DNA of 64,000 nt. Origin: Streptomyces sp. NBC_01255. Lineage in GTDB: Bacteria; Actinomycetota; Actinomycetes; Streptomycetales; Streptomycetaceae. Every line of letters begins with the position of its first letter. Within the stretch, counting starts at the first letter, position 1. The DNA lies in contig NZ_CP108474.1 in NCBI RefSeq assembly GCF_036226445.1, forward strand, positions 310,001-374,000. Direction: 5' to 3'. Made by a program: the position numbers and the translations under genes. This document shows positions 8,643 to 41,918 of the stretch, in pieces. The notes below the pieces were generated by a model that saw only the letters and a list, made by a program, of their open reading frames with translations, ran no database searches and was not told where the DNA came from.

Positions 8643-10166
8643 ATGACCCGTTACGCCGCACCCGGCACCGAGGGCGCGCTCATGTCGTACGCGGACCGCT
8701 ACGACCACTGGATCGGCGGCGAGTACGTCGCCCCGGCGCGCGGCCGCTACTTCGAGAACCCGAGCCCGGTCGACGGCCGCGCCTTCACCGAGGTCGCCCG
8801 CGGCACGGCCGAGGACGTGGAACGCGCCCTCGACGCGGCGCACGCGGCGGCTCCGGCGTGGGGCCGGACGGCCCCGGCAGAGCGCGCAACCGTCCTGCTG
8901 CGGATCGCGGACCGCATGGAGAGCAACCTGGAGGCGCTCGCGGTCGCGGAGAGCTGGGACAACGGCAAGCCCGTCCGGGAGACCCTCGCCGCCGACATCC
9001 CGCTCGCCATCGACCACTTCCGCTACTTCGCGGGTGTGCTGCGAGCCCAGGAGGGATCGCTGAGCGAGATCGACGACGACACCGTCGCGTACCACTTCCA
9101 CGAACCGCTGGGCGTCGTCGCGCAGATCATCCCGTGGAACTTCCCCATCCTGATGGCGGTCTGGAAGCTGGCCCCCGCGCTGGCCGCCGGCAACGCGGTG
9201 ATCCTCAAACCCGCCGAACAGACCCCGGCCTCCGTACACTTCTGGCTGAGCCTGGTCGCGGACCTGCTGCCGCCGGGCGTCCTGAACATCGTCAACGGCT
9301 TCGGCGAGGAGGCCGGCAAACCGCTCGCCTCCTCGCCGCGGGTGGCGAAGATCGCCTTCACCGGCGAGACGGCGACGGGCCGCCTGATCATGGGGTACGC
9401 CTCCGAGAACCTCAAGCCGGTCACCCTCGAACTCGGCGGCAAGTCCCCGAACATCTTCTTCGACGACGTGTGGGCGGCGGACGACGACTTCCGCGACAAG
9501 GCCCTCGAAGGCTTCACGATGTTCGCCCTGAACCAGGGCGAGGTCTGCACCTGCCCGTCACGCGCCCTCGTCCAGCGCGGCCACTACAGCGAGTTCCTGG
9601 AGGCGGCGATCGCCCGTACGGAGCGGATCGTCCCCGGCCACCCCCTGGACACGGCGACGATGATCGGCGCGCAGGCCTCCGCCGAGCAGCTCCGGAAGAT
9701 CCTCTCGTACCTGGAGATCGGCCAGCAGGAAGGCGCGAAGATCCTCACGGGTGGTCAGCTCATCACGTACGACGGAGACTTGGCGGGTGGCTACTACGTC
9801 CAGCCCACGATCTTCGAGGGCGACAACCGCATGCGGATCTTCCAGGAGGAAATCTTCGGCCCGGTGGTGGCGGTGACGTCCTTCACCGACTTCGACGACG
9901 CGATCCGCACGGCCAACGACACGCTCTACGGCCTCGGCGCAGGCGTCTGGACCCGCGACACGAACACGGCCTACCGCGCGGGCCGCGCGATCCAGGCGGG
10001 CCGGGTCTGGACGAACTGCTACCACGCGTACCCGGCCCACAGTGCTTTCGGAGGCTATAAGCAGTCGGGCATCGGCCGAGAGACCCACAAGATGATGCTG
10101 GACCACTACCAGCAGACGAAGAACTTATTAGTCAGTTATTCCCCCAAAAAGCTCGGCTTCTTCTAA
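8643..10166 (+). CDS. ExaC-type NAD+-dependent aldehyde dehydrogenase with a recoded tail
   Basis: 507 residues. ATG 8643 has GGGAGG 8 nt upstream; ATG 8637 is too close to the RBS. The family oxidises acetaldehyde and related aldehydes. Seen are PWNFP, the catalytic Glu in LELGGKSPN (about 263) and the catalytic Cys in NQGEVCTC (about 302). The end [16 protein letters not shown] is the usual family C-terminus. The last 14 sense codons use unusual synonyms, including consecutive TTA TTA at 10125-10130 plus AGT, TAT and AAA, unlike the rest of the gene. This suggests the 3' end was replaced by recombination. It may also make translation depend on the TTA-reading tRNA bldA. Confidence 0.95.
10116..10166 (+). 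repeat. ALDH 3'-end repeat copy C1 (gene's own end)
   Basis: The last 17 codons of the aldehyde dehydrogenase gene, with stop TAA. The same protein tail recurs as direct repeats at 21592, 29049, 32025 and 41808. C1 encodes the same residues but with different codons (AAC TTA TTA GTC AGT TAT). It lacks the left arm of the GAAGAA-N7-TTCTTC motif seen in the other copies, having CAAAAA instead. Together this looks like an attL/attR-type junction. Confidence 0.8.
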
Positions 10167-10176
10167 GAAGTTGAGC

Positions 10177-10215
10177 ACGGTGCCTGACCTGCCCAAACGG
10201 CCGGTCAGGCACCGT
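10177..10215 (+). terminator. Stem-loop terminator after the aldehyde dehydrogenase gene
   Basis: A perfect 13-bp inverted repeat, ACGGTGCCTGACC with GGTCAGGCACCGT, around a 13-nt loop, 11 nt after the stop. There is no U-run, as is usual in Streptomyces. Confidence 0.8.
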
Positions 10216-10291
10216 TGCCCTGGTCTCGAAACGGCTACCGAATTCGGGTGATTGCAGAGTTCGCTTGCCTCCGATATCTCACTTCATAGAG

Positions 10292-10356
10292 AAGATCCGG
10301 GCCATGCACGGGCCAGCGCGGTCGCCGTTCCACCGTGCATACCAGCAGACGCAGAG
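10292..10356 (+). repeat. Vestigial att-like arm near C1
   Basis: AAGATCCGGGCCA at 10292-10304 is identical to the left-arm start of copies C2 (21495) and C3 (28952). At 10340-10356 comes TACCAGCAGACGCAGAG, close to the ALDH codons around 10109-10123. The spacing is shorter than in C2 and C3 (36 against 73 nt), so this looks like a deleted extra copy of the same site. The rest of 10216-10446 shows no gene. Confidence 0.45.
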
Positions 10357-10446
10357 CCCTTTCCAAGCTGATGGTGGCGGCCGGTCGTTGTGGGGATGGC
10401 TGCACGAAACGACAAAGCTGCTGATAGACGATTCTCGATCAAGATG

Positions 10447-13416
10447 TCAGGAACGGGCCATGAGGGCGGCGAGACCCGCACGTGTGGCGACGTCGGTCTT
10501 GCGGAACACCCGGGAGAGGTGGGTCTCGACGGTCCGCGGACTGAGGTAGAGCCTGGTGGCGACCGCCTGGTTGGTGAGGCCCTCGGCCACCAGTTCGGCG
10601 ATCTCCCGCTCGCGTGCCGTCAGGGAGGCCAGCCACGGCGGGGCGGTGGAGGACGTGCGGGGTACGGACGGCCGCGTCATCTCCGCCAGGCCGACCAGCA
10701 GACCCGCGCCTCCACGGGTGGCGAGCCGGTGCCCCTGCTTCCACATGGCCTCGCCACGCGCTCCGAACCCGGCGGCCGTCATGACCGGGGCCGCGAGCAG
10801 CAGTGACCGCGCCTCCCAGAACACCGCACCAGACCGTGCGCATTCCGCCGCTGCCTCGGAGAGCAGCGTTGCCGCCCTGCCGGCGTCGCCGTGGTGCAGT
10901 GCGAGTTGTGCCGCGCTCCGCATCGCGGAGGCGCGTTGCACGGGCAGGCCGAGCTGCTCCGCTTCCGTGCGGGCCCGCTCGGACCATGCGGACGCGGACG
11001 GGACGTCCCCTGTGAAGAGGGCCGCCGTGACGAGAAGTTCCGACAGGAGGGGGCGCATCGAGGGTTGCAGGCCACGCAGGTCGTCTCCCCCGGCCCGGAG
11101 GAGAGCGTCCCGGGCGCGGTGCGGGTCGCCGCCGGTGAGCGCCGCGTAGCCGAGCATGCACCAGGCCATGGAGGCCCGCCAGTTGTCGCTCGGTCCCATG
11201 GTCGCAACGGCCTCCTCCGCGGCCGCCAGTGCCTCCGGATCGCCGGGCGCGGACGCCGCGACGCGCACCTGGGCCTTGTTGGCCAGGACGAAGGCGAGCA
11301 GTTCACCGCTGCCGATTCCGCGGGCGATGTCCTCGGCCTCGTCCGCCAGTTCCCAGGCCGACTGCAGTCGGCAGGTCTGGATCCCTACGTGTGCCTTGCA
11401 CAGCAGCAGGAGCGGCAGGAGGTAGATCTGCCCGCTGCGCCGGGCGATGCTGAGGCCGCGGTCGGCGTGGCGTTCCGCATCGATGAAGCGGCCCAGGAAG
11501 GCCTCCGCCCATCCCAGTCTGCCCAGTGGTTCGCACAGTGCCGTGAGGTCGTCGTCGGGCAGACCGTCCAGCAGGCAGGCTGCCTGCGCCGCGTACGCGC
11601 TCGCCGCGGCCACGTCGCCCTCGTAGGCCTCGCCGAACGCGGCGACCGCCAGTGCCCCCGCCTCGCCGAGTTCGTTGCCGAGGACGCGCGCGTCGGCGAG
11701 GGTCCGTGCGACTTCGCCCCGCATCTGCGGATAGGAGGCTTTGTGCGGTGCGGACGAGCAAAGTTCGAGGCCGATCGACACCCGGTCGGACGGCGACAGC
11801 TCCGGCTGGCGCAACTCGCGGCGCAGCAGCGCGATCGCCTCGGGATATCTTCCGAGGTGCCGTTCCGTCAAGGCGCACAGCACGACGGCCGACGTCCTGA
11901 CGCCGGTCTCGTCGGGACCGGCCGTGCTGATCACTTTGTGCAACAGGTCGCGGCTCTCCCGCAGCCCGCCGGAGACCCCGAGTGCTCGTGCGCGCCGCAG
12001 CAACAGATCGCGTCGCTCGACGGTGTATTCGGCCGTGTCGGGCAGCAGTCCGAGTGCGGCCTGGAGCCAGTGTGCGCAGCTCGTCGGAGCCGTCGACGCG
12101 GTCTGCTCAGCCGCCTGCCTCAGTACGGCGTACGCCTGCGGATCCCACGTGGTCACCGACCGTTCGATGTGCCGGGCCTGCTCGACGGCCGGTGCGCCGG
12201 TGCGGGCCAGCTCTGCGGCGGCGGCGCGATGGATCTCGACGCGCCGCCGAACCGCGGTGGACTCGTGGACCAGGGTCCGGATCACCGGGTGGCGCAGCAC
12301 CATGCGGCCGCCTGGGCCCGGCCGCACGAGGTCACGTCGCGCCAGCGTATCCAGATCGTCGTCGAGCTCGGCATCGGTACGGCCGGTCACCGTACGGATC
12401 ACCGGGGACACGGCGTGATCGCCGAGCACGGCGATCACCTCCAGGGTCCGGTGCTGCGACGGGGTCAGCGGGGCCAGCTCGTTAAGCAGCAGCGCTCCGA
12501 GCCCGGTGGGCAGTTCGCCGAGGCTGATCTCGGCGAAGGCCGAGGAGGACGTAGGGCGACGCGCGGCGTCCTCGCGGTGTGCGTGCAGGAGGGAGAGGAA
12601 GTAGAGCGGGTTGCCCTCTCCTGCGGCATGCAGTTGCGCGGCCCGGTCGCGCGGCAGATCGGGGGCGAGCCCTTCGACGCATTCCTGTTCCGAGAGCGGC
12701 GCCAGACCGATCCGGAGGACCGCTCCGGTGCCGGCTTCACGGGTGAGCGCCGCGGTGAGCGCGGTCGGCGTCTGCCGGTCGCGGCGGGCGACGACGAGGA
12801 CGACCGGGCCGGGTACGGGATGCCGGACGAGATGGTCCAGGAGCTCCAGGGAAGCCGGGTCCGCCCAGTGCACGTCGTCCAGCGCCACCACCAGGCCGCC
12901 CGCCCGGCCGAGTTGTGCCATCAGCCCTGCCACCGACCGGTGGAGACCGAAGCGGTCGGCGGTGGCGGGCACCGGCCCGGGGGACGGCCCGGCGCCACGG
13001 CCGCCGAGGACACGGGAGACCGCGTCCAGCAGGTCGGGGGCATGCGGGGGACGGTGGTCCAGATCGGCGAACGCGTCGGCGAACGGATGGAACGGGAGGT
13101 GCCGCTCGTACTCCGCCGCGCGGCCGCGCAACACCGTCATCCCCCGTCGCCGTGCGTGCAGGCAGAACTCCGCCATCAGCCGGCTCTTGCCGATCCCTGC
13201 CGCGCCGGTGATGTCGACGAAGGACGGGGTCCCATGGCCCAGCCGGTCGATCACCGTGTCGAGCAGCCGTAGTTCGGCCGTGCGGCCGACGAGGGGGCTC
13301 CCGCTGTCGTGATGTGTGGCCGCGTCTTCCGATGTTCCGACGTGTGTGATCCCTCTACCGAACTCCACGGCATTGTCTATCACGCCGAACGGAAGAACGT
13401 TCGAGAGTCGACCCAC
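10447..13416 (-). CDS. LAL-family LuxR transcriptional regulator with ATPase domain
   Basis: 989 residues, typical of large ATP-binding LuxR (LAL) regulators. GTG 13416 has AGGA 8 nt upstream. The N-terminal AAA/NACHT-type ATPase has Walker A in GAAGIGKSRL (about 70) and Walker B in VVALDDVHWAD. The middle is a long helical TPR-like region. The C-terminal LuxR helix-turn-helix reads LTAREREIAELVAEGLTNQAVATRLYLSPRTVE. Family members are pathway-specific activators, often of antibiotic clusters, and sense an unknown ligand. No obvious target operon is adjacent, so its regulon is not visible here. Confidence 0.9.
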   Translation of the reverse strand: MGRLSNVLPFGVIDNAVEFGRGITHVGTSEDAATHHDSGSPLVGRTAELRLLDTVIDRLGHGTPSFVDITGAAGIGKSRLMAEFCLHARRRGMTVLRGRAAEYERHLPFHPFADAFADLDHRPPHAPDLLDAVSRVLGGRGAGPSPGPVPATADRFGLHRSVAGLMAQLGRAGGLVVALDDVHWADPASLELLDHLVRHPVPGPVVLVVARRDRQTPTALTAALTREAGTGAVLRIGLAPLSEQECVEGLAPDLPRDRAAQLHAAGEGNPLYFLSLLHAHREDAARRPTSSSAFAEISLGELPTGLGALLLNELAPLTPSQHRTLEVIAVLGDHAVSPVIRTVTGRTDAELDDDLDTLARRDLVRPGPGGRMVLRHPVIRTLVHESTAVRRRVEIHRAAAAELARTGAPAVEQARHIERSVTTWDPQAYAVLRQAAEQTASTAPTSCAHWLQAALGLLPDTAEYTVERRDLLLRRARALGVSGGLRESRDLLHKVISTAGPDETGVRTSAVVLCALTERHLGRYPEAIALLRRELRQPELSPSDRVSIGLELCSSAPHKASYPQMRGEVARTLADARVLGNELGEAGALAVAAFGEAYEGDVAAASAYAAQAACLLDGLPDDDLTALCEPLGRLGWAEAFLGRFIDAERHADRGLSIARRSGQIYLLPLLLLCKAHVGIQTCRLQSAWELADEAEDIARGIGSGELLAFVLANKAQVRVAASAPGDPEALAAAEEAVATMGPSDNWRASMAWCMLGYAALTGGDPHRARDALLRAGGDDLRGLQPSMRPLLSELLVTAALFTGDVPSASAWSERARTEAEQLGLPVQRASAMRSAAQLALHHGDAGRAATLLSEAAAECARSGAVFWEARSLLLAAPVMTAAGFGARGEAMWKQGHRLATRGGAGLLVGLAEMTRPSVPRTSSTAPPWLASLTAREREIAELVAEGLTNQAVATRLYLSPRTVETHLSRVFRKTDVATRAGLAALMARS

Positions 13417-13471
13417 CCACTGAGTCCTGCGCTTCCACTGAGGACCCGAGGCAGTGCGGCCCTCCGTCGCC

Positions 13472-14029
13472 TCAGCCGAACCAGTCGACCAAGGCGATGG
13501 CTATCGAAACGATGATGCCCACCAGGACTCCGAGGACGAGTGCGGCGACCTCGGCGGCGATGAAGACCAGGACGTAGTCGCCGTTGTGGCTGAACGTGCC
13601 GTCCCGCGCACCGGCGCGGAACGACAGCGACAGGGCGAGGAACGGTCCGAGGATGAGCCCGGTGACGGTGACCCACGTACCCAGCGCGTAGCCCGACAGC
13701 TCGTGGGCTCTGCCCCTCGCCATCCGCACCTCCACGGTGCTGCCTGGCTTGTGCGACGTGGCAGCCTTGTCCAGCGTGACCTGACGTCGGGGCTCGCCCG
13801 CACGCGGTGTGTACGTGCCTGTGCAGTTGGTGCCGTCCGAATACCCCTGCGCGTCGGTGGCCTCGTAGCACGAGCTGATCCTCATGACGCCGTCCACGGG
13901 GCCGAACCCCAGAACGGCCGCCAGGTGGGGGCCCGGAAACAGCCAGATCAGCCACCCGGCGACCGCGAGACTGACCACCGCTCCGGTCCGTCCCACCCTC
14001 CGCTCCCATGTCCCCGCCGTTCGCGCCAC
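13472..14029 (-). CDS. Membrane protein of unknown function
   Basis: 185 residues from GTG 14029, with AGGAGG 9 nt upstream. It has an N-terminal membrane segment (VVSLAVAGWLIWLF) and a middle extracytoplasmic part of about 80 residues with paired cysteines (SSCYE, TNCTG). Two further membrane segments follow (YALGTWVTVTGLILGPFLAL and VFIAAEVAALVLGVLVGIIV). I do not recognise the family. It lies downstream of the LAL regulator promoter on the same strand order, with no sign of an operon. Confidence 0.65.
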   Translation of the reverse strand: MARTAGTWERRVGRTGAVVSLAVAGWLIWLFPGPHLAAVLGFGPVDGVMRISSCYEATDAQGYSDGTNCTGTYTPRAGEPRRQVTLDKAATSHKPGSTVEVRMARGRAHELSGYALGTWVTVTGLILGPFLALSLSFRAGARDGTFSHNGDYVLVFIAAEVAALVLGVLVGIIVSIAIALVDWFG

Positions 14030-14327
14030 ACCGCCCGCCCTCCTGGAAGGCGGCCGCCACGCGGACCGCCTGTGATGTGTACGGCTCACCGAACCGACAC
14101 GACTCTCCCGCCCGTCGCGGTTCCGCGAGTCCGTGGTTTCCCTGACATGCCCTACGTAATTCAGAGTGCGTGCGGTCGGCCAGCCGGCCACTACGTAGCG
14201 AAGTACGTGGTTCCACCGACGCCCTCGTCAACGGATCCTGCGAGCATCGGCCCCGTGTCGCAGCACAGCCACGTGCCCTTCGCTGCCGGCAGTCGAATGC
14301 TTCCCCCGTCGAACAAGAGGTACCTCC

Positions 14328-15032
14328 GTGTCACACCGCGTTCTCGCTTCCACCATCCTCGGAGTGGTCCTGACGCTGTCGCTCGCCGCTTGCGGATCAA
14401 CGGCGGACAAGGACCCGGCCGTCCCGGGCTCGACGGCCGCGGGCAGCGTGGCCGACGGGCGCGCCGCAGACGGAGGCGCGTCAGGGGATTGCCCCGACAA
14501 GCACGCGGCCACCGTGCAGGACGACAAATTCGGAGGGACTGCGGACATCGACCTGTGTGCGCGTCCCGAAGTGCACCGGACAGCCGTCAAGGCGGCCTGG
14601 GCCAGCGTGTACACCAGGCCCACCGTGAGCCCGCCCCTCAACATGATGCCGGTCTCCTGCACGGGCGAGTCCGAGGACAGCTGCAAGGTGACCAAGGTCA
14701 GTGGCACCGAACTGTGCAATCAGGCGAAGCCGAATTGCCACCCGCGGCGCGGCGAACAAGTACCCGTGCTCTGTTCCGCCGTGGACAAGCTGAACTCCGA
14801 CAGGCTGTACTACGGCGTGCTCCTCGACAGCAAGCGCCTGCTGGCCATGGGGACGGACAATGACCGCGGCTACACCAAGGACTTCACCGACAAGGGCGAC
14901 ATCCCCGTGGGTTATGTGGATGCCGGGCGACTGGAGACGGTGCAGGCCGAACTGCCCGCCTGTGACGGCACCCTGCTCCACGGCTGGGGAGCCCGCTCCC
15001 TCGGACGGATGCAGGGTCTTCCCATCGACTGA
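14328..15032 (+). CDS. Secreted lipoprotein of unknown function
   Basis: 234 residues. GTG 14328 is preceded by AAGAGGT at suitable distance. There is a signal peptide with a type II lipobox (SLAACG, Cys about 22), then an Ala/Asp/Gly linker. The mature domain has about seven further cysteines, suggesting disulfides and surface display. I recognise no catalytic motif. The 298 bp upstream hold only its promoter and that of the divergent membrane protein. Confidence 0.7.
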   Translation: MSHRVLASTILGVVLTLSLAACGSTADKDPAVPGSTAAGSVADGRAADGGASGDCPDKHAATVQDDKFGGTADIDLCARPEVHRTAVKAAWASVYTRPTVSPPLNMMPVSCTGESEDSCKVTKVSGTELCNQAKPNCHPRRGEQVPVLCSAVDKLNSDRLYYGVLLDSKRLLAMGTDNDRGYTKDFTDKGDIPVGYVDAGRLETVQAELPACDGTLLHGWGARSLGRMQGLPID

Positions 15033-15523
15033 TTCCCCGTCGTGACCACCTTGCTCCGGGCCCGAGCCGATGGTGGACGCGCTGCTGGTCGAGCCCTTGG
15101 CGCCGGTCGCGAGTTCCCGGTCGGCTTCTCGCCACAACGGGACGGCTCGCGCGGCCGTCGCAGGGCCTTGGCCCGCCTGCTCACTCGGTACGGCCGGGCA
15201 CCGCCCCTACAGTCGTGGCCGCCTCGGAGCCACCCGAGGAACGACAGCCGCACATGGCGCTCCAGGTTGTCCCGGTGCCTGGACCTCATGGCCTCGATGC
15301 ACGCGGCGCGTGCGGCGGCGGGCCGATCTCGGGGATACGCCCGCCCCAGGTTCATGCCGTCGTCGCTCTGGACGTTGCCCCACTCGTAGTCGTGCCACAG
15401 ATCCCGCTCGGGCTGGTGGACGTAGGTCTTCCACAGGCCCACAGCCGTGCTGACATCGCCTGGCTGCAGATAGTTGCGGGTGCGCTCGAGACGGGTGATC
15501 TCGGACAGTGCACGCAAAGACAT
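14912..15523 (-). CDS. Hypothetical protein, C-terminal part doubtful
   Basis: ATG 15523 with AGGT 8 nt upstream opens a frame whose first about 110 residues look protein-like (MSLRALSEITRLERTRNY, then a W-rich stretch and a helical ARAACIEAMRSRHR). Beyond about residue 115 the frame becomes Arg/Pro-rich and runs antisense into the lipoprotein gene. A frameshift or lost stop near 15190 is therefore likely. No family recognised. Confidence 0.35.
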   Translation of the reverse strand: MSLRALSEITRLERTRNYLQPGDVSTAVGLWKTYVHQPERDLWHDYEWGNVQSDDGMNLGRAYPRDRPAAARAACIEAMRSRHRDNLERHVRLSFLGWLRGGHDCRGGARPYRVSRRAKALRRPREPSRCGEKPTGNSRPAPRARPAARPPSARARSKVVTTGNQSMGRPCIRPRERAPQPWSRVPSQAGSSACTVSSRPAST

Positions 15524-15591
15524 GTCAGCGCGACCTGAGAGCATCGCAGTGGGCGAGACCGGAAGTGGCTCGCGAAGGGGGAGTGTGGGCG

Positions 15592-16017
15592 ATGAGCTGG
15601 TGGCTGTGGGCTCTTCTGGGCGTCGCGGTCGTGGTCGTGGCGCGGCTGACGTGGAGGATCGTCCACAAGCGTGGGTTGTGGGACACCAGAACCATGGGGC
15701 TCGGCTTCGGGCGCGATGAGCACGGTGGTGTGGTCTTTCTCGACACGGCCAACAACTGGGCAGACAGCACCGCGGGCTACGACCGGGACATCGCTCGCGA
15801 GGTGGATTTCCGGGGACCGAACCCGCTCCCGTCCAACCGTCCACCGGGGACGGCACCGGGTGAAGGCGACTGGGGCAATTGGTGGCTGGACCGCATCAGG
15901 TATCTCCGGGAGGACCACGTCCAGAACTCGGAGAAGCACATCGTGTACATCATCCAAGCCCGACGGCTCGCTGGGCTGCCCGAGTTGGAGGCGACGGACG
16001 ACACAGGTTCAGGGTGA
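15592..16017 (+). CDS. Small membrane-anchored protein
   Basis: 141 residues. ATG 15592 has GGGGGAG 8 nt upstream. An N-terminal membrane helix (WWLWALLGVAVVVVARL) is followed by a soluble domain of about 115 residues rich in Trp, Asp and Asn. No family recognised. It is divergent from the hypothetical gene ending at 14912 and is followed at once by transposase debris, so it sits at a rearranged edge. Confidence 0.6.
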   Translation: MSWWLWALLGVAVVVVARLTWRIVHKRGLWDTRTMGLGFGRDEHGGVVFLDTANNWADSTAGYDRDIAREVDFRGPNPLPSNRPPGTAPGEGDWGNWWLDRIRYLREDHVQNSEKHIVYIIQARRLAGLPELEATDDTGSG

Positions 16018-16019
16018 CG

Positions 16020-16620: not shown

Positions 16621-16662
16621 GAGTCGTCCCGCGCATGCGGCGCACCGCACACGTTTCCCGGA

Positions 16663-17822: not shown

Positions 17823-18000
17823 CCGGCGGGCCGGCTCGGCCGGAGGCTGTGTGGGCTCCGGCCCGGAAGTGGTCCGGGCGCGGCGAGGGACGTAGTAGAT
17901 CAGCACCACACCAGCCGTCTGGCAAAGGGTCGTTCATGAGAATCGCGGAGCGTGGCACTCCTGACCGGAGAGCTACCCCGAAGCCCTTCCGCCCTGCCCA

Positions 18001-32149: not shown

Positions 32150-32165
32150 CGAGACGTGCTCCATG

Positions 32166-33491: not shown

Positions 33492-34726
33492 CGCCGTCCC
33501 CGGCTGAGGAGGTCCGCGACCGCGTCGGCGACGTGGTCCACCTCCTCCTCGGTGTTGTAGTAGTGCGGCGACAGGCGCAGACACCATTCGATGCCCTTGT
33601 CCGCGAAGTCGAGCTGCGCGAACTCACGGAAGCTGAGTGCCGAGTTGATGGAACGGGCGTCCATGGCCGCCTTGAACGGCTCCGGCTGCCAGCCCTCCAC
33701 CTCGAAGGTGACGAGCGCGGCGAGACGCCGGCCACGGTCGAGCAGGCGCACTCCGGGGATGGGTTCGAGCCGGTCGCGCAGCCGGGCCGCGAGCATCGGT
33801 GTGCGCTGCTCGATGGCCTCGATGCCGACCTCGCGGGCATAGCGCGTCGCGGCGGCGCTGCCGAGCACCGTGGCGTACGGCAACTCCCACTCCTCGAACC
33901 GGGTTGCCGTCCCGACGGGCTCGTAGCCGCCCGGCTCGGTCCAGCGGGCGCCGTGCATGTCGATGAACAGCGGCTCGTAGCCCGCGCGCAGGACGCGATC
34001 GGAGACGTACAGGAATCCGGAGCCGCGCGGCCCGCGCAGGAACTTGCGGCAAGTGGCGGTGAGGAAGTCGCAGCCGATCTCCTCCACGTCGAGGACGAAC
34101 TGGCCCACCGACTGACAGGCGTCGACCAGGTAGAGCAGGTCCAGCTCACGGCAGTGGCGGCCGATCTCGGCCACGGGCGAGACCAGACCCGAGTTGGTGG
34201 GGACATGGGTGGCGGACACCAGGCGCGGGCGGTGGGTCCGCATCAGCGCGGCCATCGCCTCCACATCGACCCCGCCCTCGGGTGCGTCGGGCGCGTGGAC
34301 GATGCGTACACCGAATCGCTTTCGCAGGGACAAGAAGGCGATCTGGTTGGAGACGAAGTCGTCGCGGGTGGTGAGGATGACGTCGTCGGCCTCGAACGGG
34401 ATCGAGGACAGGGCGTTGGAGTAGGCGTGGGTGGCGCTGCCCGCGAAGGCGATGTTGTCGGGCGTGGTGTTGATGAGGGCGGCGATCTCCGTGTAGAACT
34501 CGCGGACTTCGGCGGCTCGGGCGGCCGACGCCTCGTAGCCGCCGATCCGCGCCTCGAGGTTCAGCTGGCCGACCATCGCGTCCAGGACCGGGGCTGCCAG
34601 CAGGCCGGAGCCCGCGTTGTTGAAGTGGATGACCTGTCGGCACCCCGGGGTGTCGGCCCGCAGAGCGGCGACGTCCAGCTGAAGTGCTTCCGAAGCGGAG
34701 CTAGTAGCGCTATTCTTCTCTGTCAT
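33488..34726 (-). CDS. Class V PLP-dependent aminotransferase
   Basis: 412 residues. The fold-type I class V signatures are seen: HFNNAGSGLLAAPVLDAM near the N-terminus, VDACQSVGQF (PLP-binding Asp) and the Schiff-base Lys in ATCRKFLRGPRGSG. It is related to isopenicillin-N-epimerase/cysteine-desulfurase-like enzymes. ATG 34726 is the only plausible start. It shares the CATG tetranucleotide with the divergent MocR start at 34725, so at least one of the two mRNAs is probably leaderless or starts inside the other gene. Coupled to the MFS gene. Confidence 0.88.
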   Translation of the reverse strand: MTEKNSATSSASEALQLDVAALRADTPGCRQVIHFNNAGSGLLAAPVLDAMVGQLNLEARIGGYEASAARAAEVREFYTEIAALINTTPDNIAFAGSATHAYSNALSSIPFEADDVILTTRDDFVSNQIAFLSLRKRFGVRIVHAPDAPEGGVDVEAMAALMRTHRPRLVSATHVPTNSGLVSPVAEIGRHCRELDLLYLVDACQSVGQFVLDVEEIGCDFLTATCRKFLRGPRGSGFLYVSDRVLRAGYEPLFIDMHGARWTEPGGYEPVGTATRFEEWELPYATVLGSAAATRYAREVGIEAIEQRTPMLAARLRDRLEPIPGVRLLDRGRRLAALVTFEVEGWQPEPFKAAMDARSINSALSFREFAQLDFADKGIEWCLRLSPHYYNTEEEVDHVADAVADLLSRGRR

Positions 34727-34745
34727 GAACGACGGTAGCACTTCT
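34681..34745. promoter_or_regulatory. Candidate MocR operator over the divergent starts
   Basis: GAAGTGCT (34681-34688) and AGCACTTC (34737-34744) are a perfect 8-bp inverted repeat centred on the divergent start codons. GTAGCGCTA (34705) and GTAGCACTT (34735) are near-direct repeats 30 bp apart, and TAGCGCTA is a perfect palindrome. MocR proteins typically bind direct repeats near their own divergent promoter. Confidence 0.45.
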
Positions 34746-36146
34746 GGGGAGTTGGCCGACAGTCTCCGTACGCGGCTCTCCCGGCTTTCCCCCGGCGACC
34801 GGCTGCCGAGCAGCCGGGAGCTGATCAAGGAGTACCGGGTCGGCCCCGCGACCGTGGCGCGGGCCATCGCCGCGCTGGCCGCCGAGGGCGCGGTGGTGAC
34901 CCGTCCGGGCAGCGGTACGTTCGTGGCGCAGCGCACCCGACTCCACGGCGAAGCCGCCGCCACGGACACGGACTGGCAGACGGTCGCCCTCACCGACCGC
35001 GCCGTAGACACCCAACTGATCGCCGACCCGCTCGGCCCGCCGCCGGCCGGAACGATTGCGATGGACGGCGGCTACGTGCACCGCTCGCTCCAGCCCACCC
35101 GGGCCCTGAGCGCGGCGCTCGCGCGGGCAGCACGCCGTCCGGACGCCTGGGACCGCGCCCCGGCCGGCGGACTCATGGCGCTGCGCACCGTGTTCGCCCG
35201 CATCGTCGGCGGCAGCGTGGCGCCGGAGGACGTGCTGGTCACCGCAGGCGGACAGAGCGCCCTGTCGATCGCGTTCCGGGCCATCGCCGGGCCCGGCAGC
35301 CCGGTCCTGGTGGAGTCCCCCACCTATCCCCGGGCCCTGGCCGCCGCCCGCGCCGCGGGGCTGCGGCCCGTCCCGGTACCGCTCGACGCCGACGGCCTGC
35401 GGCCCGACATGCTGGCCGACGCGTTCGCGATGACCGGCGCGCGACTGCTGTACTGCCAGCCGACCTTCCAGAACCCGACCGGCACCGTCCTTGCACCCGA
35501 GCGGCGCCGCCAGATCCTCGACGTGGCGCGCGCCTCGGGCGCGTTCGTCATCGAGGATGACTTCGCACGGCACCTGGGACACGGCAGCGCCGTGCCGCGG
35601 CCGCTGGTCGCCGACGACCGCGACGGCACGGTCGTCCACGTCACCTCACTCACCAAGCCCGCCGCACCGAGCCTGCGGATCGGGGCGCTCGTGGCCCGCG
35701 GACCGGTCATGGAACGCATGCGGGCGGTGCGCCTGGTCGACGACTTCTTCGTCACGCGCCCGCTCCAGGAGGCCGCGCTCGAAGTGCTCAGCTCCCCGTC
35801 CTGGGAGCGGCACGTACGTTCTCTCGGTACGGCGCTGCGGGAGCGGTGCGCCGCGCTGGCCGCCGCGGTCACGCAGGAGATCCCCGGCGCGACCTTGGCC
35901 GGGCTGCCCACGGGCGGACTGCACTTGTGGGTTCGTCTGCCGTCAGGTGTGGACGACACGGTCCTCACCGCCGCCGCCCGGCAACGCGGCGTCGCGGTGA
36001 GCGCCGGCAGCCGCTACTTCGCCACGGAGCCGCCGGCGGCTCACCTGCGTATCGGGTTCGCCACGACGGCCGATCACGCCGAACTGACCGAGGGCACACG
36101 TCGGCTGGCAGCCGCGCTTGCGGATGTCGGCCCCGGGCAGGGGTGA
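34725..36146 (+). CDS. MocR-type GntR regulator with aminotransferase domain
   Basis: 473 residues. A GntR winged helix (about 8-70: SRELIKEYRVGPATVARAIA, then GSGTFVAQR) is followed by a fold-type I PLP domain. That domain has the PLP-site motif QPTFQNPTGTV and the Lys in VTSLTKPAAPSLRIG. MocR proteins sense PLP or amino acids and usually control a divergent PLP-related gene. Here the divergent gene is the class V aminotransferase plus exporter. The start codon overlaps the neighbour's start, and the RBS-like GGAG is too far away, so a leaderless transcript is likely. Confidence 0.88.
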   Translation: MNDGSTSGELADSLRTRLSRLSPGDRLPSSRELIKEYRVGPATVARAIAALAAEGAVVTRPGSGTFVAQRTRLHGEAAATDTDWQTVALTDRAVDTQLIADPLGPPPAGTIAMDGGYVHRSLQPTRALSAALARAARRPDAWDRAPAGGLMALRTVFARIVGGSVAPEDVLVTAGGQSALSIAFRAIAGPGSPVLVESPTYPRALAAARAAGLRPVPVPLDADGLRPDMLADAFAMTGARLLYCQPTFQNPTGTVLAPERRRQILDVARASGAFVIEDDFARHLGHGSAVPRPLVADDRDGTVVHVTSLTKPAAPSLRIGALVARGPVMERMRAVRLVDDFFVTRPLQEAALEVLSSPSWERHVRSLGTALRERCAALAAAVTQEIPGATLAGLPTGGLHLWVRLPSGVDDTVLTAAARQRGVAVSAGSRYFATEPPAAHLRIGFATTADHAELTEGTRRLAAALADVGPGQG

Positions 36147-36596
36147 GGCACACGACTCGACTACGTCGCGGAGCGCGTATCGACACCGGATCGCACTCCT
36201 GACCAGCGGTCATCCGTCTTCGGAAGCATCCAAGGCCGGGGAGAATGACCCCCCGATGGGGAACGGCCGGGGAGGATCGCCCGCATGAACGGGCAGCACG
36301 GCAGAAGGGCCGGAAAGGCGGATCGCCGCAGGTCGGACCACATATACAGCCGATTTCCGCAGGTCAGCGGATCTGGGGAGAATGCGCGGCGCTGGGGAGT
36401 GGACGCCTCCTGCCGACCCGCTCGCAGTTCTGCGGCCACCACGGGAACGGTCCCCACAGGCAAGGCTGAGAGTCGGGGGTCACCGAGGGTGCCAGGCGAA
36501 GCCCTGCCGACCGTTCCCTGGATGCTGTTGACTTCCACGCGGGGCATCACACACAGGGAGGGCCGGTTGGAACCGAGGAGTGCAGCGGCTGCGGGA
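36147..36596. other. Gene-free stretch
   Basis: 450 bp with no convincing coding frame; the open frames here are Arg/Pro-rich shadows. The next gene begins at 36597 or, less likely, at ATG 36522. Confidence 0.4.
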
Positions 36597-37340
36597 ATGG
36601 ACTTCCCGTACACCGCACGTACGACGTGCTACATCGAGGTCCACGAAGACGGCAGCGTGACGCACGGGGCTGACCGTGCTGCCTACGAACGAGCTCTGGC
36701 CGGCAGCTCGCGGCTCTTCGCGGTCTGGCCCGGCGAGTGGTCCAGCCACTTGTTCGTGATCGACGACCTGGACGAGTACGCCAAGGCTCACGGTATCAAG
36801 CACGACGAGGAGCGGACCGGCCTCAAGGAACACGTCCACGAGGTGCGGTGGGAAGAGACCTCGTACGGGAACGACAATCCCCGCAGCCCGTATCTGAGCA
36901 TCGACGTCTCGCTGGACTGCGGCTGCACGATCCACAACATCCGAACCTTCGCGGCCCAGATGAAGGCACAGAGGGGATGGGACGTCGCCACCAGCGTCGG
37001 CTGGGGCAGCAGCGGTGGACCGCTCCGGCGAGGACGAGGGGTCTGTGAACCGGCGGCACAGCTCAACCGTGTCGACCCGGGACATCCTCGCCAACGTCCT
37101 GATCGACGTGGGACGGCACGCGAAGGCTGCTGCTCTCCTCGACCGCTGCGTCCACGACTACCGGCGCGTCTACGGCCCGGGGCACCCCCGCCAGCGGGCC
37201 GCCGAGGAGAAGCTGGCCTGGCTACCGGACGACACCCGGTAGGGCAACACCGGGCGGCCCGGAGCCACAGACCGTATCGGCCCCGTTTCTCCACCCACCC
37301 GGAGATGCAGGCGCAAGGGATCTCGGCGCCGGAGACGTAG
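36597..37340 (+). CDS. Hypothetical protein, C-terminus replaced
   Basis: From ATG 36597 the first about 140 residues look native: YTARTTCYIEVHEDGSVTHG, then VWPGEWSSHLFVIDDLDEYA, DVSLDCGCTIHNIRTFAAQM and VGWGSSGG. Soluble, with a CGC motif. After GWGSSGGP the frame becomes Arg/Pro-rich and overlaps the TPR fragment in another frame. The original end was thus probably lost near 37015-37060. No family recognised. Confidence 0.45.
   Translation: MDFPYTARTTCYIEVHEDGSVTHGADRAAYERALAGSSRLFAVWPGEWSSHLFVIDDLDEYAKAHGIKHDEERTGLKEHVHEVRWEETSYGNDNPRSPYLSIDVSLDCGCTIHNIRTFAAQMKAQRGWDVATSVGWGSSGGPLRRGRGVCEPAAQLNRVDPGHPRQRPDRRGTAREGCCSPRPLRPRLPARLRPGAPPPAGRRGEAGLATGRHPVGQHRAARSHRPYRPRFSTHPEMQAQGISAPET
37015..37242 (+). 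pseudogene. TPR-protein C-terminal fragment
   Basis: About 60 residues, TVSTRDILANVLIDVGRHAK, then AAALLDRCVHDYRRVYGPGH and AAEEKLAWL, form one to two tetratricopeptide units as found in Streptomyces regulator/NB-ARC-TPR proteins. Upstream repeats and start are missing. Confidence 0.55.
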
Positions 37341-37551
37341 ATCGCTCCTGCGTACCTGCGGGCGAGGCGTCATACCAGGTCCAGCCGGCCACACTGACCG
37401 GCGTCCCGACGCTCGACGCAGCCCCCGAGCACCTGGTGCAGGTGGCGGCGACGGCCGTCCTCGAGTGATCGCCGAGGGCACGGCCGAGAGGCGGGGGGGC
37501 GATCGCCGATGGCAGCCTGGGCCCATACGGGATCTGCGAAAGGGACTACCC
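37243..37551. other. Gene-free stretch before the VOC gene
   Basis: 309 bp without coding signal. The RBS AAGGGAC of the VOC gene lies at its right end. Confidence 0.4.
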
Positions 37552-38352
37552 ATGATCACCACCGACTTCGCCCCCGGCTCCCCCTGCTGGCTCGACCTCG
37601 GTGCTCCCGACGTCCCCGCCGCCGCGGCCTTCTACGGCGCCGTGCTCGGCTGGGACTACGAGCCTATGAGCGGCGGCGGAGAGGACATGGAAGGCGGCAT
37701 GTTCCGCAAGGACGGCAAGATCGTCGCCGGCCTGGGCAAGCTCACCGAGAAGGGCGCCCGCTCCGCCTGGATGATCTACTACAGCGTCGCCGACGCGGAC
37801 GCCACGACCGAGGCCGTCGAACGCGCCGGCGGGACCGTGCGGGTCACACCGACGGACCTCGACGAGTGGGGACGAATGGCCCAGTACAGCGATCCGCTGG
37901 GGGGCCAGTTCGCCGTCTGGCAGCCCGGCACGAACAAGGGCGTCGACCTGGTGGACGCGCCGGGCGCGCTGTCCTGGACGGAGCTCTACACGAGCGACGC
38001 CGCGGCCGCCCGGGAGTTCTACGGCAGCGTCTTCGGCTGGCAGTACGCCGACATGGAAATGCCCGGCGGCGGAGGCACGTACACCCTCATCACCCCCGCC
38101 GGCCTGCCCCAGGAGCGCATGCAGGGCGGCCTCATGGAACTCCCCCGGGAGCATCTCGCCCTCACGGGCGGCCGCCCGTACTGGCACCCGGTCTTCGACG
38201 TCGTCGACTGCGACGCTGCGATCGCCAAGGTCACCGAGAACGGCGGCAGCATCCAGATGGGCCCGGACGACGCCGAGGACGTGGGCCGCCTCGCCGTCTG
38301 CCTCGACCCGTCCAACGCCGACTTCGTCGTCCTGACCCCGACCCCGAAGTGA
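37552..38352 (+). CDS. Double-domain VOC (glyoxalase-like) protein
   Basis: 266 residues. ATG 37552 has AAGGGA upstream. Two VOC domains in tandem, each starting with a W-x-(D/E)-L motif: SPCWLDLGAPDVPAAAAFYG and LSWTELYTSDAAAAREFYG. Each ends in an (F/V)xxxxDP or LDPSNADFVV strand. VOC proteins bind divalent metal and act as lyases, dioxygenases or resistance binders. This hydroxylase/27-kDa-antigen-like group has no defined substrate. It stands alone in the C4-C5 segment. Confidence 0.85.
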   Translation: MITTDFAPGSPCWLDLGAPDVPAAAAFYGAVLGWDYEPMSGGGEDMEGGMFRKDGKIVAGLGKLTEKGARSAWMIYYSVADADATTEAVERAGGTVRVTPTDLDEWGRMAQYSDPLGGQFAVWQPGTNKGVDLVDAPGALSWTELYTSDAAAAREFYGSVFGWQYADMEMPGGGGTYTLITPAGLPQERMQGGLMELPREHLALTGGRPYWHPVFDVVDCDAAIAKVTENGGSIQMGPDDAEDVGRLAVCLDPSNADFVVLTPTPK

Positions 38353-38945
38353 CCGAGGGCCGCTCGTCGTGGCCGGCGCGCGACGAGCCGCACACGGTCC
38401 CTGCCGACGGAACCGTCGGGCTGTTCGAAGCGCCGGCTTGGTCGCTCCGGCTTCCACGATGCCCGCGTACGACGCGACGTGATACATCCTCGCGCACTTG
38501 CTGCCGGTCGACCCGACCGACGACACCGTGCTCGTCCTCCCTTCCAGGAGAGCCGGCCGGTGCTCGTACTCGTTGCCGTCGCGCAGTACAGCGGCGGGCA
38601 GGCGGGAGACCCATGCCTCGGGCACGCCGGCGGCGGCCACCGCGGTGCGCGCTCCGCGTAGTGCCACGCGAACGGGTATGCGCAGCGGATGGGTGCGGTT
38701 ACCGGGATCGGAGTGAGTACGCGTACTCACATGACCCGCGCTCGTACGCTCGAGGGAAGATGGCACCGCAGACAGGCCCTGGGCTCCGGGCTGAGGTTGG
38801 CCGGCGGCAGCAGGCGCCACAGCACCGGCTCTGCCGCCGGCGGACCAGGCGCTGCTGGTCGCCGTGTACTACCGGACGAACCATTGGCCGCAGTCGAACC
38901 CTGCCCTCCTCGTCGCGACAAGCACCGGACCGATCGTCCAGGGCG
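38353..38945. other. Decayed stretch with an 18-bp palindrome
   Basis: 593 bp between convergent genes. The minus strand around 38430-38675 has a weak coding-like frame (GVPEAWVSRLPAAVLRDGNE) that I cannot assign. GTGAGTACGCGTACTCAC at 38713-38730 is a perfect 18-bp palindrome, possibly an operator whose gene has decayed. Confidence 0.35.
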
Positions 38946-40445
38946 TCAAGTGGGTGTGTGGGCGGTTTTGTTCGTCGTGGCGCCGTCTTCGTCCTGGTCC
39001 TCCGACGCAGCAGGCTGTTGCGGAGTGGGAGGGGTGCGGACCAGCAGTGCGACCAGCACGGCCAAGGTGCCGATCACGGCGCCGACGCCGAATCCCCAGC
39101 GGATGCCCGTGGCCAGGGCGCCGGTGGCGCCGGCGCCGTCGGCTGCCGCCGTGGCGGCGTGTCCCGACATGACGCTGATGACCAGGGCGGTACCGGCGGC
39201 GGCCGCGACCTGTTGGAGCGAGCCCAGGATGGCGGAGCCGTGGGGGTAGAGGTGCGGCGGCAGTACGGACAGGCCGGAGGTGAAGACGGGGGTGAAGACG
39301 AACGCCATGCCCGCGCTCAGGGCCACGTAAAGGGCGAGCACCAGCCACGGCGAGGTCTGTTCGCCCGTGAGGGCGAACAGTGCGAGGCAAAGCGCGGTGA
39401 GTGCGGCTCCGGGTACGACCAGGCGTGGTGCGCCGAGTCGGTCGTAGAGCTTGCCGACCTGCGGTCCGAGCAGGCCCATGGTCAGGCCGCCGGGGATGAG
39501 GAGAAGCCCGGTCTGCAGTGAGGTCAGGCCGCACACCTCCTGCAGATAGATCGGCAGCAGGATGAACGCACCCATGAGGGCCATGAAGGACAGGCACATC
39601 AGGCCCAGTGCCACGGAGAAGTGACGAAACGTCAGGGCGCGGAGGTCCAGCAGCGGTGTGGACGAGCGCTGCAGTGCCAGCTGTCGCCATGCGAACAGGC
39701 CTACCAGCACGGCGCCGGCCAGGGTCGTGGCCGCCGGAGACATGGGGGCCTGGGCTGCGTTCCCGGCACCGAGCCCGCTCAGGCCGTAGACCAGGGCGCC
39801 GAAGCCCGCTGCCGCCAGGGGGACGGACAACCAGTCGATCGGGCCGGCCTGCGGCTCGCCGACGTTGACCAGTTTGCGCCGACCGAATATGGCCATGGCT
39901 CCGGCGATGGGCAGCACGGCCAAGAACAGCAGGCGCCATGTCCCCAGCTGCAGCAGCACGCCCGAGACCGCAGGGCCGAGGGCGGGCGCGACGGAGATGA
40001 CGAGGGTGATGTTGCCCATGACACGGCCGCGGTCGTGCGGGGGCACGAGGGTCATCAGCGTCGTCATGAGCAGCGGCATCATGACGGCGGTGCCGCTGGC
40101 CTGGATGACGCGGGCGGCCAGCAGCACGGGGAAGGCGGGCGCGGCCGCGGCCAGAGCCGTGCCGGCGAGGAACAGTGCCATGGCCAGGCCGAAGGCGGTC
40201 CGAGTCGTCACCCGCTGGAGGAACCACCCCGTCACCGGGATGACGACGGCCATGGTGAGCATGAAGGCCGTGGACAGCCACCCTGCGGCTGCCGCGGTGA
40301 CCTCGAACTCGCGCATGAGCCGCGGGATCGCGTTGACCATGATCGTCTCGTTGAGGAGGACGACGAACGTGGACAGCACGAGAATCCGCAGCACGGCGGT
40401 GACGCGGGCGGGCGAGAGGGTGGGTGTTGCGTGTGGTGCGAGCAT
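38946..40445 (-). CDS. DHA2-family multidrug MFS exporter
   Basis: 499 residues, about 14 helices. ATG 40445 has GGAAGG upstream. EmrB/QacA-type motifs are seen: TIMVNAIPRLMREFEVTAA in helix 1, GWLSTAFMLTMAVVIPVTGW, and motif C GPAVSGVLLQLGTWRLLF. The proton-driven family exports drugs and antibiotics. The C-terminal tail is acidic. No adjacent regulator of its own is seen; the 38713 palindrome lies beyond its 3' end. Confidence 0.92.
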   Translation of the reverse strand: MLAPHATPTLSPARVTAVLRILVLSTFVVLLNETIMVNAIPRLMREFEVTAAAAGWLSTAFMLTMAVVIPVTGWFLQRVTTRTAFGLAMALFLAGTALAAAAPAFPVLLAARVIQASGTAVMMPLLMTTLMTLVPPHDRGRVMGNITLVISVAPALGPAVSGVLLQLGTWRLLFLAVLPIAGAMAIFGRRKLVNVGEPQAGPIDWLSVPLAAAGFGALVYGLSGLGAGNAAQAPMSPAATTLAGAVLVGLFAWRQLALQRSSTPLLDLRALTFRHFSVALGLMCLSFMALMGAFILLPIYLQEVCGLTSLQTGLLLIPGGLTMGLLGPQVGKLYDRLGAPRLVVPGAALTALCLALFALTGEQTSPWLVLALYVALSAGMAFVFTPVFTSGLSVLPPHLYPHGSAILGSLQQVAAAAGTALVISVMSGHAATAAADGAGATGALATGIRWGFGVGAVIGTLAVLVALLVRTPPTPQQPAASEDQDEDGATTNKTAHTPT

Positions 40446-40652
40446 GGCGCCTTCCGTCAGGTGAGTGCCCTCCGCACGTGGGCAGGTCACACTGGCAGAC
40501 CGCGGCGCCGGGAAGAACTCATCGGTGTTGTCCGATCCTGTCGGTGTCGCCGCCCAAGCTCAAACCATTTTGCCGACCCGGAACGGCCAAGCCCAGGAAA
40601 CCGCCCTGTACGTCACCCCCGGCGTGGGGGCTGCTGGTGCGGGCCTACATCT
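40446..40652. other. Spacer upstream of the DHA2 exporter gene
   Basis: 207 bp holding the exporter promoter. No clear palindrome or gene. Confidence 0.35.
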
Positions 40653-40893
40653 TCACCCGTCGCCGTCGGAACTGACAGGCGGTACGTCGACCGGCACACC
40701 CCCGCCGCGCAGTGACTCGGTTCGCTGCACAGCCGGTTGCCACCGCCTGGCGTGCGGCGACCGAAGAGGTGAGCATGGGGCACCGTCGCGTACGAAGTCC
40801 ACGAACTCGGCCAGCAGCCTCGGGTCCGCGCCGCCGTGCCCGCCGTCCCCGGCCCGCACCTCGACCGTCAGGTCCGCGTCCGACCCGGCGTCG
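40653..40893 (-). pseudogene. Gfo/Idh/MocA oxidoreductase C-terminal remnant
   Basis: Three frames give consecutive blocks GDGGHGGADPRLLAEFVDFV, then SSVAARQAVATGCAA, then TESLRGGGVPVDVPPV and stop. They are the end of Gfo/Idh/MocA-family sugar oxidoreductases, with two frameshifts. The NAD-binding half is absent. Confidence 0.65.
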
Positions 40894-41039
40894 GAACTTC
40901 AACTCACGTGCCGTCTGGGGCCGGGAATCCGCCGTCCCCACTCTGTCTTGTCCGGTGATCCAGGACTCGACATTTGGCACAGCGACACGCACCCTACTGG
41001 TACCAGGTCAACCCCCGAAGGACTTCCGGAGCCGACCAC

Positions 41040-41553
41040 TCCTCACAGTGGGCCGAGCACTGCACCTCGCAATTGCCTATGAGGACAAGTGCCAGTACGT
41101 GCTCCGTGTCGGCAACCTGATCACCGCCCACCATGCCGACCCGGCCATTACCTCGAAGAGGCCGTCGCCTCAGTCCCCGCCGACAAGGTGCTGGGCGGCA
41201 CCCTGCACAGCCTGACCGCGCACCCGATGGGCCGGACCATGGACATGGACACCCTGCACAAGGCCAGGCAGGCCCGAAACTGGATCGCCTACGAAGGCGC
41301 CTCGATCGGCGCCATCTGCTCAGTGGACCGCGACCTCGTCATTCAGCACACCGTCAAACCGCGTGACGCCGTCACGGATCTCGCGCTCGGCGACAACATC
41401 ATCTCGCACTGGTGCAACGGCCTGACTGAACCGCACGACCCGCCGCCCACGGACCGGATCAACAGCTACCCCGACGCCGTCGACACCTGGGTCCTCGGCC
41501 ATCTCTGTGGCCTGCTGCCCGAGCCGGCTTCGAGCCTCGCCAGCCCGGAGTGA
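41040..41553 (+). pseudogene. Frameshifted hypothetical gene
   Basis: One frame gives VGRALHLAIAYEDKCQYVLR to about 41130. A second continues EEAVASVPADKVLGGTLHSL, then RQARNWIAYEGASIGAICSV, INSYPDAVDTWVLGHL and a stop at 41553. The second part alone is about 140 residues and could still be translated. It is protein-like but I recognise no family. Confidence 0.45.
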
Positions 41554-41570
41554 CGGCACAGACCCTGTGG

Positions 41571-41681
41571 TCAGTCGTCTTCACACTCGGTCAGGTGCTC
41601 CATAAGTCGCTCCAGGATCTCCCCTGAGAGAGCCGGTGCCCGCTGCAACCAGTGATCAAGCCACTCCACTTCCGTCATCAT
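41571..41681 (-). CDS. Small 36-residue protein
   Basis: ATG ATG at 41681 opens a 36-residue frame: [20 protein letters not shown] followed by a Glu/Leu helix ending in TECEDD. It is amphipathic and protein-like in composition, unlike shadow frames. The RBS is weak. It could be a real small gene or the rest of a larger one. It lies just left of C5. Confidence 0.35.
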
Positions 41682-41723
41682 GCCTGGTCAGCCACCTTCC
41701 ATATCTACGGACTTTCATCGAAC

Positions 41724-41918
41724 TCCGCACACAGCGCTTTCGGAGGAACTAAGCAATCCAGCATCGGTCACGAGACCCACAAGATGATGCTGGAGCACTA
41801 CCAGTGGACCAAGAACTTGCTGGTCAGCTACTGGCCGAAGAAACTCGGCTTCTTCTGAGCATGCCAGTGAGGCGTACCAGGAAGCACTACATAGGGCGGC
41901 CGAGATCGCTGGCCACGA
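41724..41918 (+). repeat. Att-like site C5: longest ALDH tail copy + right arm
   Basis: Codons from 41730 encode [20 protein letters not shown] and on through [17 protein letters not shown] to the stop at 41858, about 43 codons of the ALDH end. Nonsynonymous changes (Y to T, G to S, S to W) show it is no longer under selection. The right arm (GAGGCGTACCAGG, then GGCCGAGATCGCTGGCC to about 41918) matches C3. Core motif: GAAGAA-ACTCGGC-TTCTTC, as in C3. Confidence 0.85.

Follow-up and report, generated by a model that had tools for sequence, protein, structure and literature searches.

Site-specific accretion of Streptomyces pathogenicity islands is reportedly named in the title of a 2017 study by Zhang and Loria. 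Several arrangements of this kind have been described. PAISt of Streptomyces turgidiscabies is an island in the 3' end of bacA, at an 8-bp palindrome, TTCATGAA, with a tyrosine recombinase; a 141-bp copy of the bacA 3' end forms its right attachment site (attR), and a further internal attachment site (att) and modular excision are reported (PMC4057263). In Dehalococcoides, multiple islands stand in tandem within 100 kb downstream of one gene, ssrA, and are closed by direct repeats of the ssrA 3' end (PMC3146451). For accretion of the ICESt1/CIME type, transfer of tandems of a cis-mobilizable element (CIME) and an integrative and conjugative element (ICE) is reported (PMC5704250). The vast majority of tyrosine integrases of actinomycete ICEs (AICEs) use tRNA genes (PMC3218068), and AICE transfer is double-stranded and proceeds via an FtsK-related TraB protein. 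Here we describe a 64,000-nucleotide stretch of the soil bacterium Streptomyces sp. NBC_01255 (contig NZ_CP108474.1, C1:310001-374000 of an 8.57 Mb genome; hereafter the window) in which the 3' end of an aldehyde dehydrogenase (ALDH) gene recurs downstream of the gene. We consider it very probable, at roughly nine chances in ten, that these tails record stacked site-specific integration by a family of tyrosine recombinases at the ALDH 3' end. A first-pass annotation, made from the sequence alone, had proposed serial integration at an att site in this gene end; the proposal is now supported by an integrase gene beside the ALDH tail in other genomes, arm sequences at fixed distances and comparison with empty sites. 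Positions below are window coordinates unless marked otherwise, and G and L numbers are our labels for genomes and loci.

Results

The ALDH gene (8637..10166, + strand) is an open reading frame of 509 amino acids, ExaC-type by the name it received in the first-pass annotation; orthologues were found, and its 3' end is the putative integration site. Five direct + strand copies of this 3' end had been claimed for the window, and BLASTN of the ALDH 3' end recovers them all: besides the gene itself, matches lie at 21581-21643, 29038-29100, 32025-32074 and 41719-41859, all on the + strand, with E from 2e-7 to 1e-30. The accompanying description of the tails, as the last 17 codons without the rest of the gene, fails for the copy at 41808, which carries about 140 bp of ALDH (41719-41859). 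Three more copies, at 71397, at 79757 and, in degenerate form, at 85612 (numbering continued from the window), extend the array past the window to within 22 kb of its end, for a total of eight same-strand copies across 75 kb. An 88-nt tail query against the rest of the genome found nothing except a 16-base match. The tail copies differ mostly in the third base of codons, the pattern to be expected of sequences that each formerly ended a working gene.

The copies at 21592, 29049, 71397 and 79757 have more in common than the tail: upstream of each stands an arm, GATCCGGGCCA, at a distance of exactly 98 bases from the AAG of a core in which the half-sites CCAGCAG and CTGCTGG are inverted around the spacer ACGAAGAAC. 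The core consensus comes from a hand-picked, ungapped stack of 27 attR ends, of which this genome supplied four and 16 other genomes the remaining 23; the earlier arm search had missed two of these ends, G143 and the one in G004 at 68506. Within the stack, paired arm repeats are followed by CTGGTCAG-like sequence and finally by TGTACCACCAGCAGACGAAGAACCTGCTGGT. At far ends the paired arm repeat, P, precedes the core by 96-99 bp; at near ends an identical arm pair, P', lies 119-146 bp beyond the gene. In this layout the ALDH end sites look lambda-like.

Arms were counted in 2,443,402 bases (2.44 Mb) of fetched sequence selected for tails or ALDH, so the counts test position and strand and not genome-wide frequency. 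Arm sites with at most one mismatch number 408 on both strands together; 25 have a core at the correct distance, and all 25 of these lie on ALDH tails, in the ALDH direction. The tails are not a dispersed repeat unrelated to ALDH loci, a reading that the first-pass annotation had named as one that would refute it, as judged within sequence chosen for tails or ALDH. Of the paired arms with at most one mismatch, 64 are on the ALDH strand, with 26 in the P position, 29 in the P' position and nine elsewhere, and four are on the opposite strand; one of the nine, in G004 at 70897, is an attR with a frameshifted tail. P', searched for with at most two mismatches within 330 bp, is present in 31 of the 55 ALDH loci of a non-random sample that holds one genome twice (G011 and L156), including 23/23 loci with an adjoining integrase. 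Among the 24 loci lacking P', none has the integrase and one (G162) has an attR.

Beyond the ALDH stop codon, a hairpin recognised by eye and then the paired arms are displayed in 11 of 12 aligned intact cases; the aligned stretch of G094 stops short of the arms, and the P' search finds arms in 12/12. In a subtype comprising five loci (L165, L166, L158, G009 and G002), P' stands at 119-120 bases, versus 132-146 in the others, behind a different hairpin; no integrase adjoins it in 5/5, and reading by eye of the reverse-strand frames in the first 2.3 kb of these loci recognised no separate one.

Arm-bearing tails are stacked in other genomes too: five copies lie in 80 kb of G383 and four in 40 kb of G401, ALDH being outside both stretches. 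Stacking is therefore not peculiar to the window strain. A later pattern search of the NBC_01255 genome found one extra element-type core that lacks an ALDH tail, at C1:8062186. This site on the opposite chromosome arm (C1:8062186-8062208, L248) consists of a P arm and core and is followed by an unrelated, Pfam-recognised integrase gene.

Scans for PF00589 and PF00239 gave no match in 290-434 kb of the contig, and PF00589 gave none at E 1 in stretches from nine other genomes. These nulls suggested islands without any recombinase, an idea overturned by the reading frames adjoining the tails, which revealed the end of a tyrosine recombinase whose gene is divergent and mostly broken. Searched with the C-terminal part of this integrase at E 1e-20, a sample of 295 Streptomyces genomes gave matches in 214, many of them to distant relatives, and the family looks widespread in the genus. 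Thirty loci were fetched from among the best matches, and at 27 of them an ALDH tail adjoins the integrase, 24 times at the gene itself and three times at a downstream copy. Two of the remaining three loci (L079 and L080) are integrase fragments beside transposase-like frames, by eye. At the last, L091 (1216-1298; 1492-2883), an integrase relative (62%) is convergent with a tRNA-Tyr gene; this single example hints that the ALDH clade may have switched its target from a tRNA.

The integrase frame is open in 12 of 15 stretches, encoding 462-487 amino acids, and broken in G031, G025 and G100. In 12/12 intact cases the gene is convergent with ALDH, with its stop codon 96-171 bp beyond the ALDH stop, and is preceded by a frame that we take to be Xis-like on the strength of a motif, not of a family search. 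One of two intact integrases scanned against Pfam had no PF00589 match and the other scored 13.7 bits against a cut-off of 27.1; PF22022 was below its cut-off in both. NCBI names the relatives tyrosine-type recombinase/integrase, and a PHROG integrase family matches at E 7.5e-27. An AlphaFold model (pLDDT 76.6, pTM 0.53) matched Tn1549 Int, XerH, lambda Int and Cre in Foldseek, and the predicted fold is that of a tyrosine recombinase. Solved structures include no sequence relative at E 0.01.

In 43 aligned sequences, chosen from 120 listed relatives and with catalytic columns picked by motif, R273, K321 and R399 are present in 43/43 and Y431 in 42/43. At the final position ahead of the nucleophile, tyrosine recombinases usually have a histidine or a tryptophan. 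Here that position, 422, is Q in 21 and R in one of the 22 sequences at least 66% identical to the first, and H in 21/21 sequences at most 60% identical to it. The ALDH-sited integrases have Q at this position in 15/15 cases and the tRNA-sited L091 has H, a split that may mark the ALDH clade. A phage origin was considered and rejected: 50,697 phage records (viral contigs not searched) yielded only four Arthrobacter phages, at 32% over 28% of the protein. A 1.6 Mb record listed as a plasmid (G019:C2) carries ALDH, an intact integrase and a 131 kb island, and integrase pieces with 85-90% identity are present on two more plasmid records from Streptomyces.

Uninterrupted genomes of the sort that the first-pass annotation had recommended looking for exist. 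In G007, G013 and L162 (Streptomyces sp. YS415) the site is empty: a gene of 456-461 amino acids starts 58-152 bases past ALDH, and one of 512-581 amino acids follows about 1.5 kb past it. Both of these anchor genes are shifted about 8.6 kb farther from ALDH in G009; in G107 the longer is shifted about 182 kb and the shorter was not found. In each of these two filled genomes an arm-bearing attR lies between the insert and the anchor. A neighbour that is presumably DUF779, a name suggested by its motif, stands directly after ALDH in G298, L164 and L168; it was not used as an anchor, being 5-45 kb from ALDH with no preceding tail in G016, G018, G165 and G168. Genes at 85-124 kb of our own genome, tried as anchors against the other stretches, had nothing in common with them except one 34% match.

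Where the integrase frame is open, the nearest attR lies about 131 kb from the gene in G019 and G083, 112 kb in G094 and 172 kb in G107. Besides the integrase, which occurs in 12 of 13 gene sets (the exception being our own genome), no gene is common to all islands, the next families occurring in five. PF01580 (FtsK/TraB), the transfer gene family searched for, has no match in the interval from ALDH to the far tail of six genomes (G107, G019, G083, G094, G110 and G203), nor in the stretch fetched from G193.

An element-type core with at most one mismatch is present in 99 of the 295 genomes of the genus sample; a reversed control pattern matched once, in a single genome. In an order sample that overlaps this one, the core occurs in 52 of 197 genomes and in 0/16 outside the genus.

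The attL core of the window (10109..10131, +), at the left attachment site within ALDH, consists of the left half-site CCAGCAG, the spacer ACGAAGAAC at 10116-10124 and the right half-site TTATTAG; with TTATTAG in place of CTGCTGG, this attL may work poorly. The tail that follows (10125..10166, +) appears to have been replaced, as judged from third-position GC (GC3) and TTA codons. GC3 is 11/17 in the last 17 codons versus 463/493 before them, and adjacent TTA codons, 497 and 498 (10125-10130), come directly after the crossover spacer. TTA is the codon that the bldA tRNA reads in Streptomyces. TTA codons occur in 0/54 other ALDH loci (one genome counted twice), and it is possible that a bldA dependence of ALDH was brought in by an element. 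Just past the stop codon, a BLASTN self-match marks a terminator-like inverted repeat (10177..10215), and 12 other genomes have a hairpin at the equivalent place, by eye on the alignment. The arm search places the P' arm pair of attL, TCCGGGCCATGCACGGGCCA, at 10296..10315 (+), with 0 mismatches to the motif.

Unit 1 (10167..21591, 11.4 kb) retains this P' at its left end and a P arm at its right, has no integrase match and has the altered right half-site in its core; for transfer genes it was judged only from scanned called genes. Its cargo starts about 130 bases past P' and includes genes for a LuxR-family AAA regulator (10447-13383), a NADAR protein (16663-17145), a sensor kinase (19257-20453) and a response regulator (20534-21151). 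A block of this cargo, from 10445 to about 15060, recurs at 84-92% identity in four other genomes (L257-L260). The annotation had held that related genomes carrying the same genes without tails would speak against it. For unit 1 this is partly the case: the block occurs elsewhere, with a tail in the fetched flanks of 0/9 loci. The cargo is accordingly not confined to the ALDH site, a result that does not make the sites false; the block was probably captured.

The attR that closes unit 1 (21497..21643, +) has its P arm at 21497 and its core and ALDH tail from 21592. Unit 2 (21644..29048, 7.4 kb) holds an NmrA-type gene (21886-22728), an AfsA-domain gene (22746-23678), an FAD hydroxylase gene (23938-25413) and a gene of no assigned type (27721-28938); the AfsA-domain gene, of the A-factor signal type, adjoins the NmrA-type and FAD hydroxylase genes. 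After the next attR (28954..29100, +; P arm at 28954, core and tail from 29049) comes unit 3 (29101..32024, 2.9 kb), with a DUF4440 gene and an MFS fragment, which ends at a tail copy (32025..32074, +) that begins at the crossover spacer and for which no P arm was found. Unit 4 (32075..41718, 9.6 kb) contains two MFS genes, a class V aminotransferase gene, a GntR-aminotransferase regulator gene and a glyoxalase-type gene. The tail copy beyond it (41719..41859, +) has no P arm, over 80 bp of ALDH precede its core, and its left flank (41573-41718) is shared with Streptomyces sp. NRRL S-87, where flank and longer ALDH repeat lie at L161:20125-20380. Judged by its sequence, the 41.8 kb copy is a second insertion class.

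Remnants of the integrase in our own genome lie at 55946-56146, 71516-72660 and 101867-102031. The first (- strand) is 67-79% identical to the C-terminal part, and no tail was found beside it. A search for degenerate att sites beside the remnants at 55.9 and 101.9 kb found none, the best core matches having 13 and 14 mismatches in 29. With only three integrase remnants in 144 kb, the window holds decayed or integrase-less units.

The window holds two further features. Genes for a tubulin-like protein of 1676 amino acids, an AAA ATPase and a VMAP-C protein follow one another at 56725-63968 and resemble a conflict system. A protein kinase gene at 45517-47139 matches PD-T4-6 defence models, at best with E 5.9e-63; since nothing outside the kinase domain is matched, the gene may be an ordinary kinase.

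Discussion

Our data argue for stacked integration at the ALDH 3' end by a tyrosine recombinase family. An incoming element would recombine its own core with the ALDH core, and ALDH would acquire from it a new, near-synonymous tail, generating an attL with P'. The old tail would be shifted downstream, behind the P arm of the element, as attR, and repeated rounds would yield stacked units. In the window strain the integrases appear to have been lost, and the remaining units are perhaps still movable in trans.

Several observations weigh against this account. Excision was not observed. The copies at 32025, 41808 and 85612 have no upstream arm, so that P is absent from two of the window's four copies outside the gene, and the internal copies of our own genome lack P', whereas stacking predicts P and P' together there. 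No intact integrase is present in the 144 kb searched (290-434 kb of the contig), where the family is represented by the three remnants. Empty and filled sites belong to different species, making theirs a comparison and not a before-and-after pair, and the DUF779 neighbour is displaced with no tail before it in four genomes (G016, G018, G165 and G168). In 11 of the 15 integrase-bearing stretches, of which 18-60 kb was fetched, there is no attR; G110 and G203 have a tail at a distance of 319 kb and 239 kb, respectively, and a search of that side in G031, G193, G280, G247 and G100 gave none. Finally, some element-type cores are far from ALDH, and a core match alone does not prove insertion there.

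One alternative concerns how the units move. They may be non-autonomous cassettes that never carried an integrase and were moved in trans, in the manner of CIMEs or of staphylococcal cassette chromosome (SCC) elements, by the integrases of large islands at the same site. SCC cassettes are a parallel for units moved in trans. Eight of the 31 P' loci have no adjoining integrase match (our own, G143, G002, G009, L158, L163, L165 and L166); five of these have the P' placing at 119-120, which no integrase-bearing locus shares, and attR is also present at our own locus, G002, G009, L158 and L163. Unit 1, whose cargo begins so soon after P' and is found elsewhere in other genomes, has the look of such a cassette. 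Plain deletion of an integrase after integration would look identical, however; the remnants at 71.5-72.7, 55.9 and 101.9 kb represent integrase decay in this very region, and no unit has been observed moving. We regard cassettes that never had an integrase as possible but unlikely.

A somewhat more doubtful alternative is that the site is used by two recombination systems unrelated to each other, one being the arm-bearing family and the other leaving a longer repeat of ALDH, as at 41.8 kb. In Streptomyces sp. NRRL S-87 (L161), ALDH ends just past the core; about 8.9 kb downstream is a 107-bp repeat of ALDH, which shares its left flank with the window at 41.57-41.72 kb. These are just two examples among the loci examined, however, and the starts of reading frames in the L161 insert, read by eye without a profile scan, included no recognisable recombinase. 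Very improbable is a third explanation, that the tails are duplication leftovers, ALDH fragments copied with neighbouring DNA by homologous or illegitimate recombination and without a site-specific enzyme: the 41.8 kb copy, with its long ALDH stretch and shared left flank, and the armless 32 kb copy would fit it, but in four of the seven copies outside the gene the match to ALDH begins no earlier than the left half-site and P stands at a constant 98 bases, every arm-plus-core site counted falls on a tail, and related genomes have a fitting recombinase at the site.

Stacked integration by the recombinase family could also have a wider reach. Speculatively, and with low confidence, the ALDH end might be a genus-wide cassette dock. 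Integrase-less units with complete P and P' ends of their own would persist as families, and the integrases of a few large islands would load and reshuffle them in trans. Each loading would rewrite the last 13 codons and the stop, and the two TTA codons of our own strain would put the enzyme under the bldA tRNA. On the main reading alone, without that speculation, the ALDH end is a natural docking site for foreign genes, an integration hotspot defined in a genus studied for its accessory genes and served by a recombinase beyond the standard Pfam integrase model. The end sites are precise enough for marking island borders, and a working integrase with its natural site at the ALDH end could be an integration tool.

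Comparison with known systems places the ALDH islands as follows. In pSAM2, Xis is next to Int. AICEs such as pSAM2 (PMC3218068) are like the ALDH islands in being actinobacterial and in having Int with an Xis gene near att; they differ in their TraB translocase, no FtsK/TraB-type gene having been found within the ALDH islands tested. As in CIME accretion (PMC5704250), the ALDH units are decayed and lined up at one gene, and unit 1 may retain both attL and attR. Host and integrase family differ, and tandem transfer is reported for CIME-ICEs, whereas the ALDH units are known from sequence. The ssrA islands also have a conserved motif just upstream of the repeat and reverse-strand integration genes next to attL, which some islands lack; there, in contrast, the enzyme is a serine recombinase and the target a tmRNA gene, versus a tyrosine recombinase and a protein gene here (PMC3146451). 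PAISt is likewise a Streptomyces island at the 3' end of a protein gene, with a tyrosine recombinase and a gene-end copy as attR. It differs in using bacA and TTCATGAA, where the ALDH islands have inverted half-sites around ACGAAGAAC and paired arms; the two are compared here by target and core. A literature search, which left most subscription journals and preprints out of reach, found no description of an ALDH integration site, and the recombinase and its site appear undescribed in the searchable literature. Stacking of this kind is already known from PAISt, the ssrA islands and CIME accretion, and the ALDH locus is a clear new example of tandem accretion.

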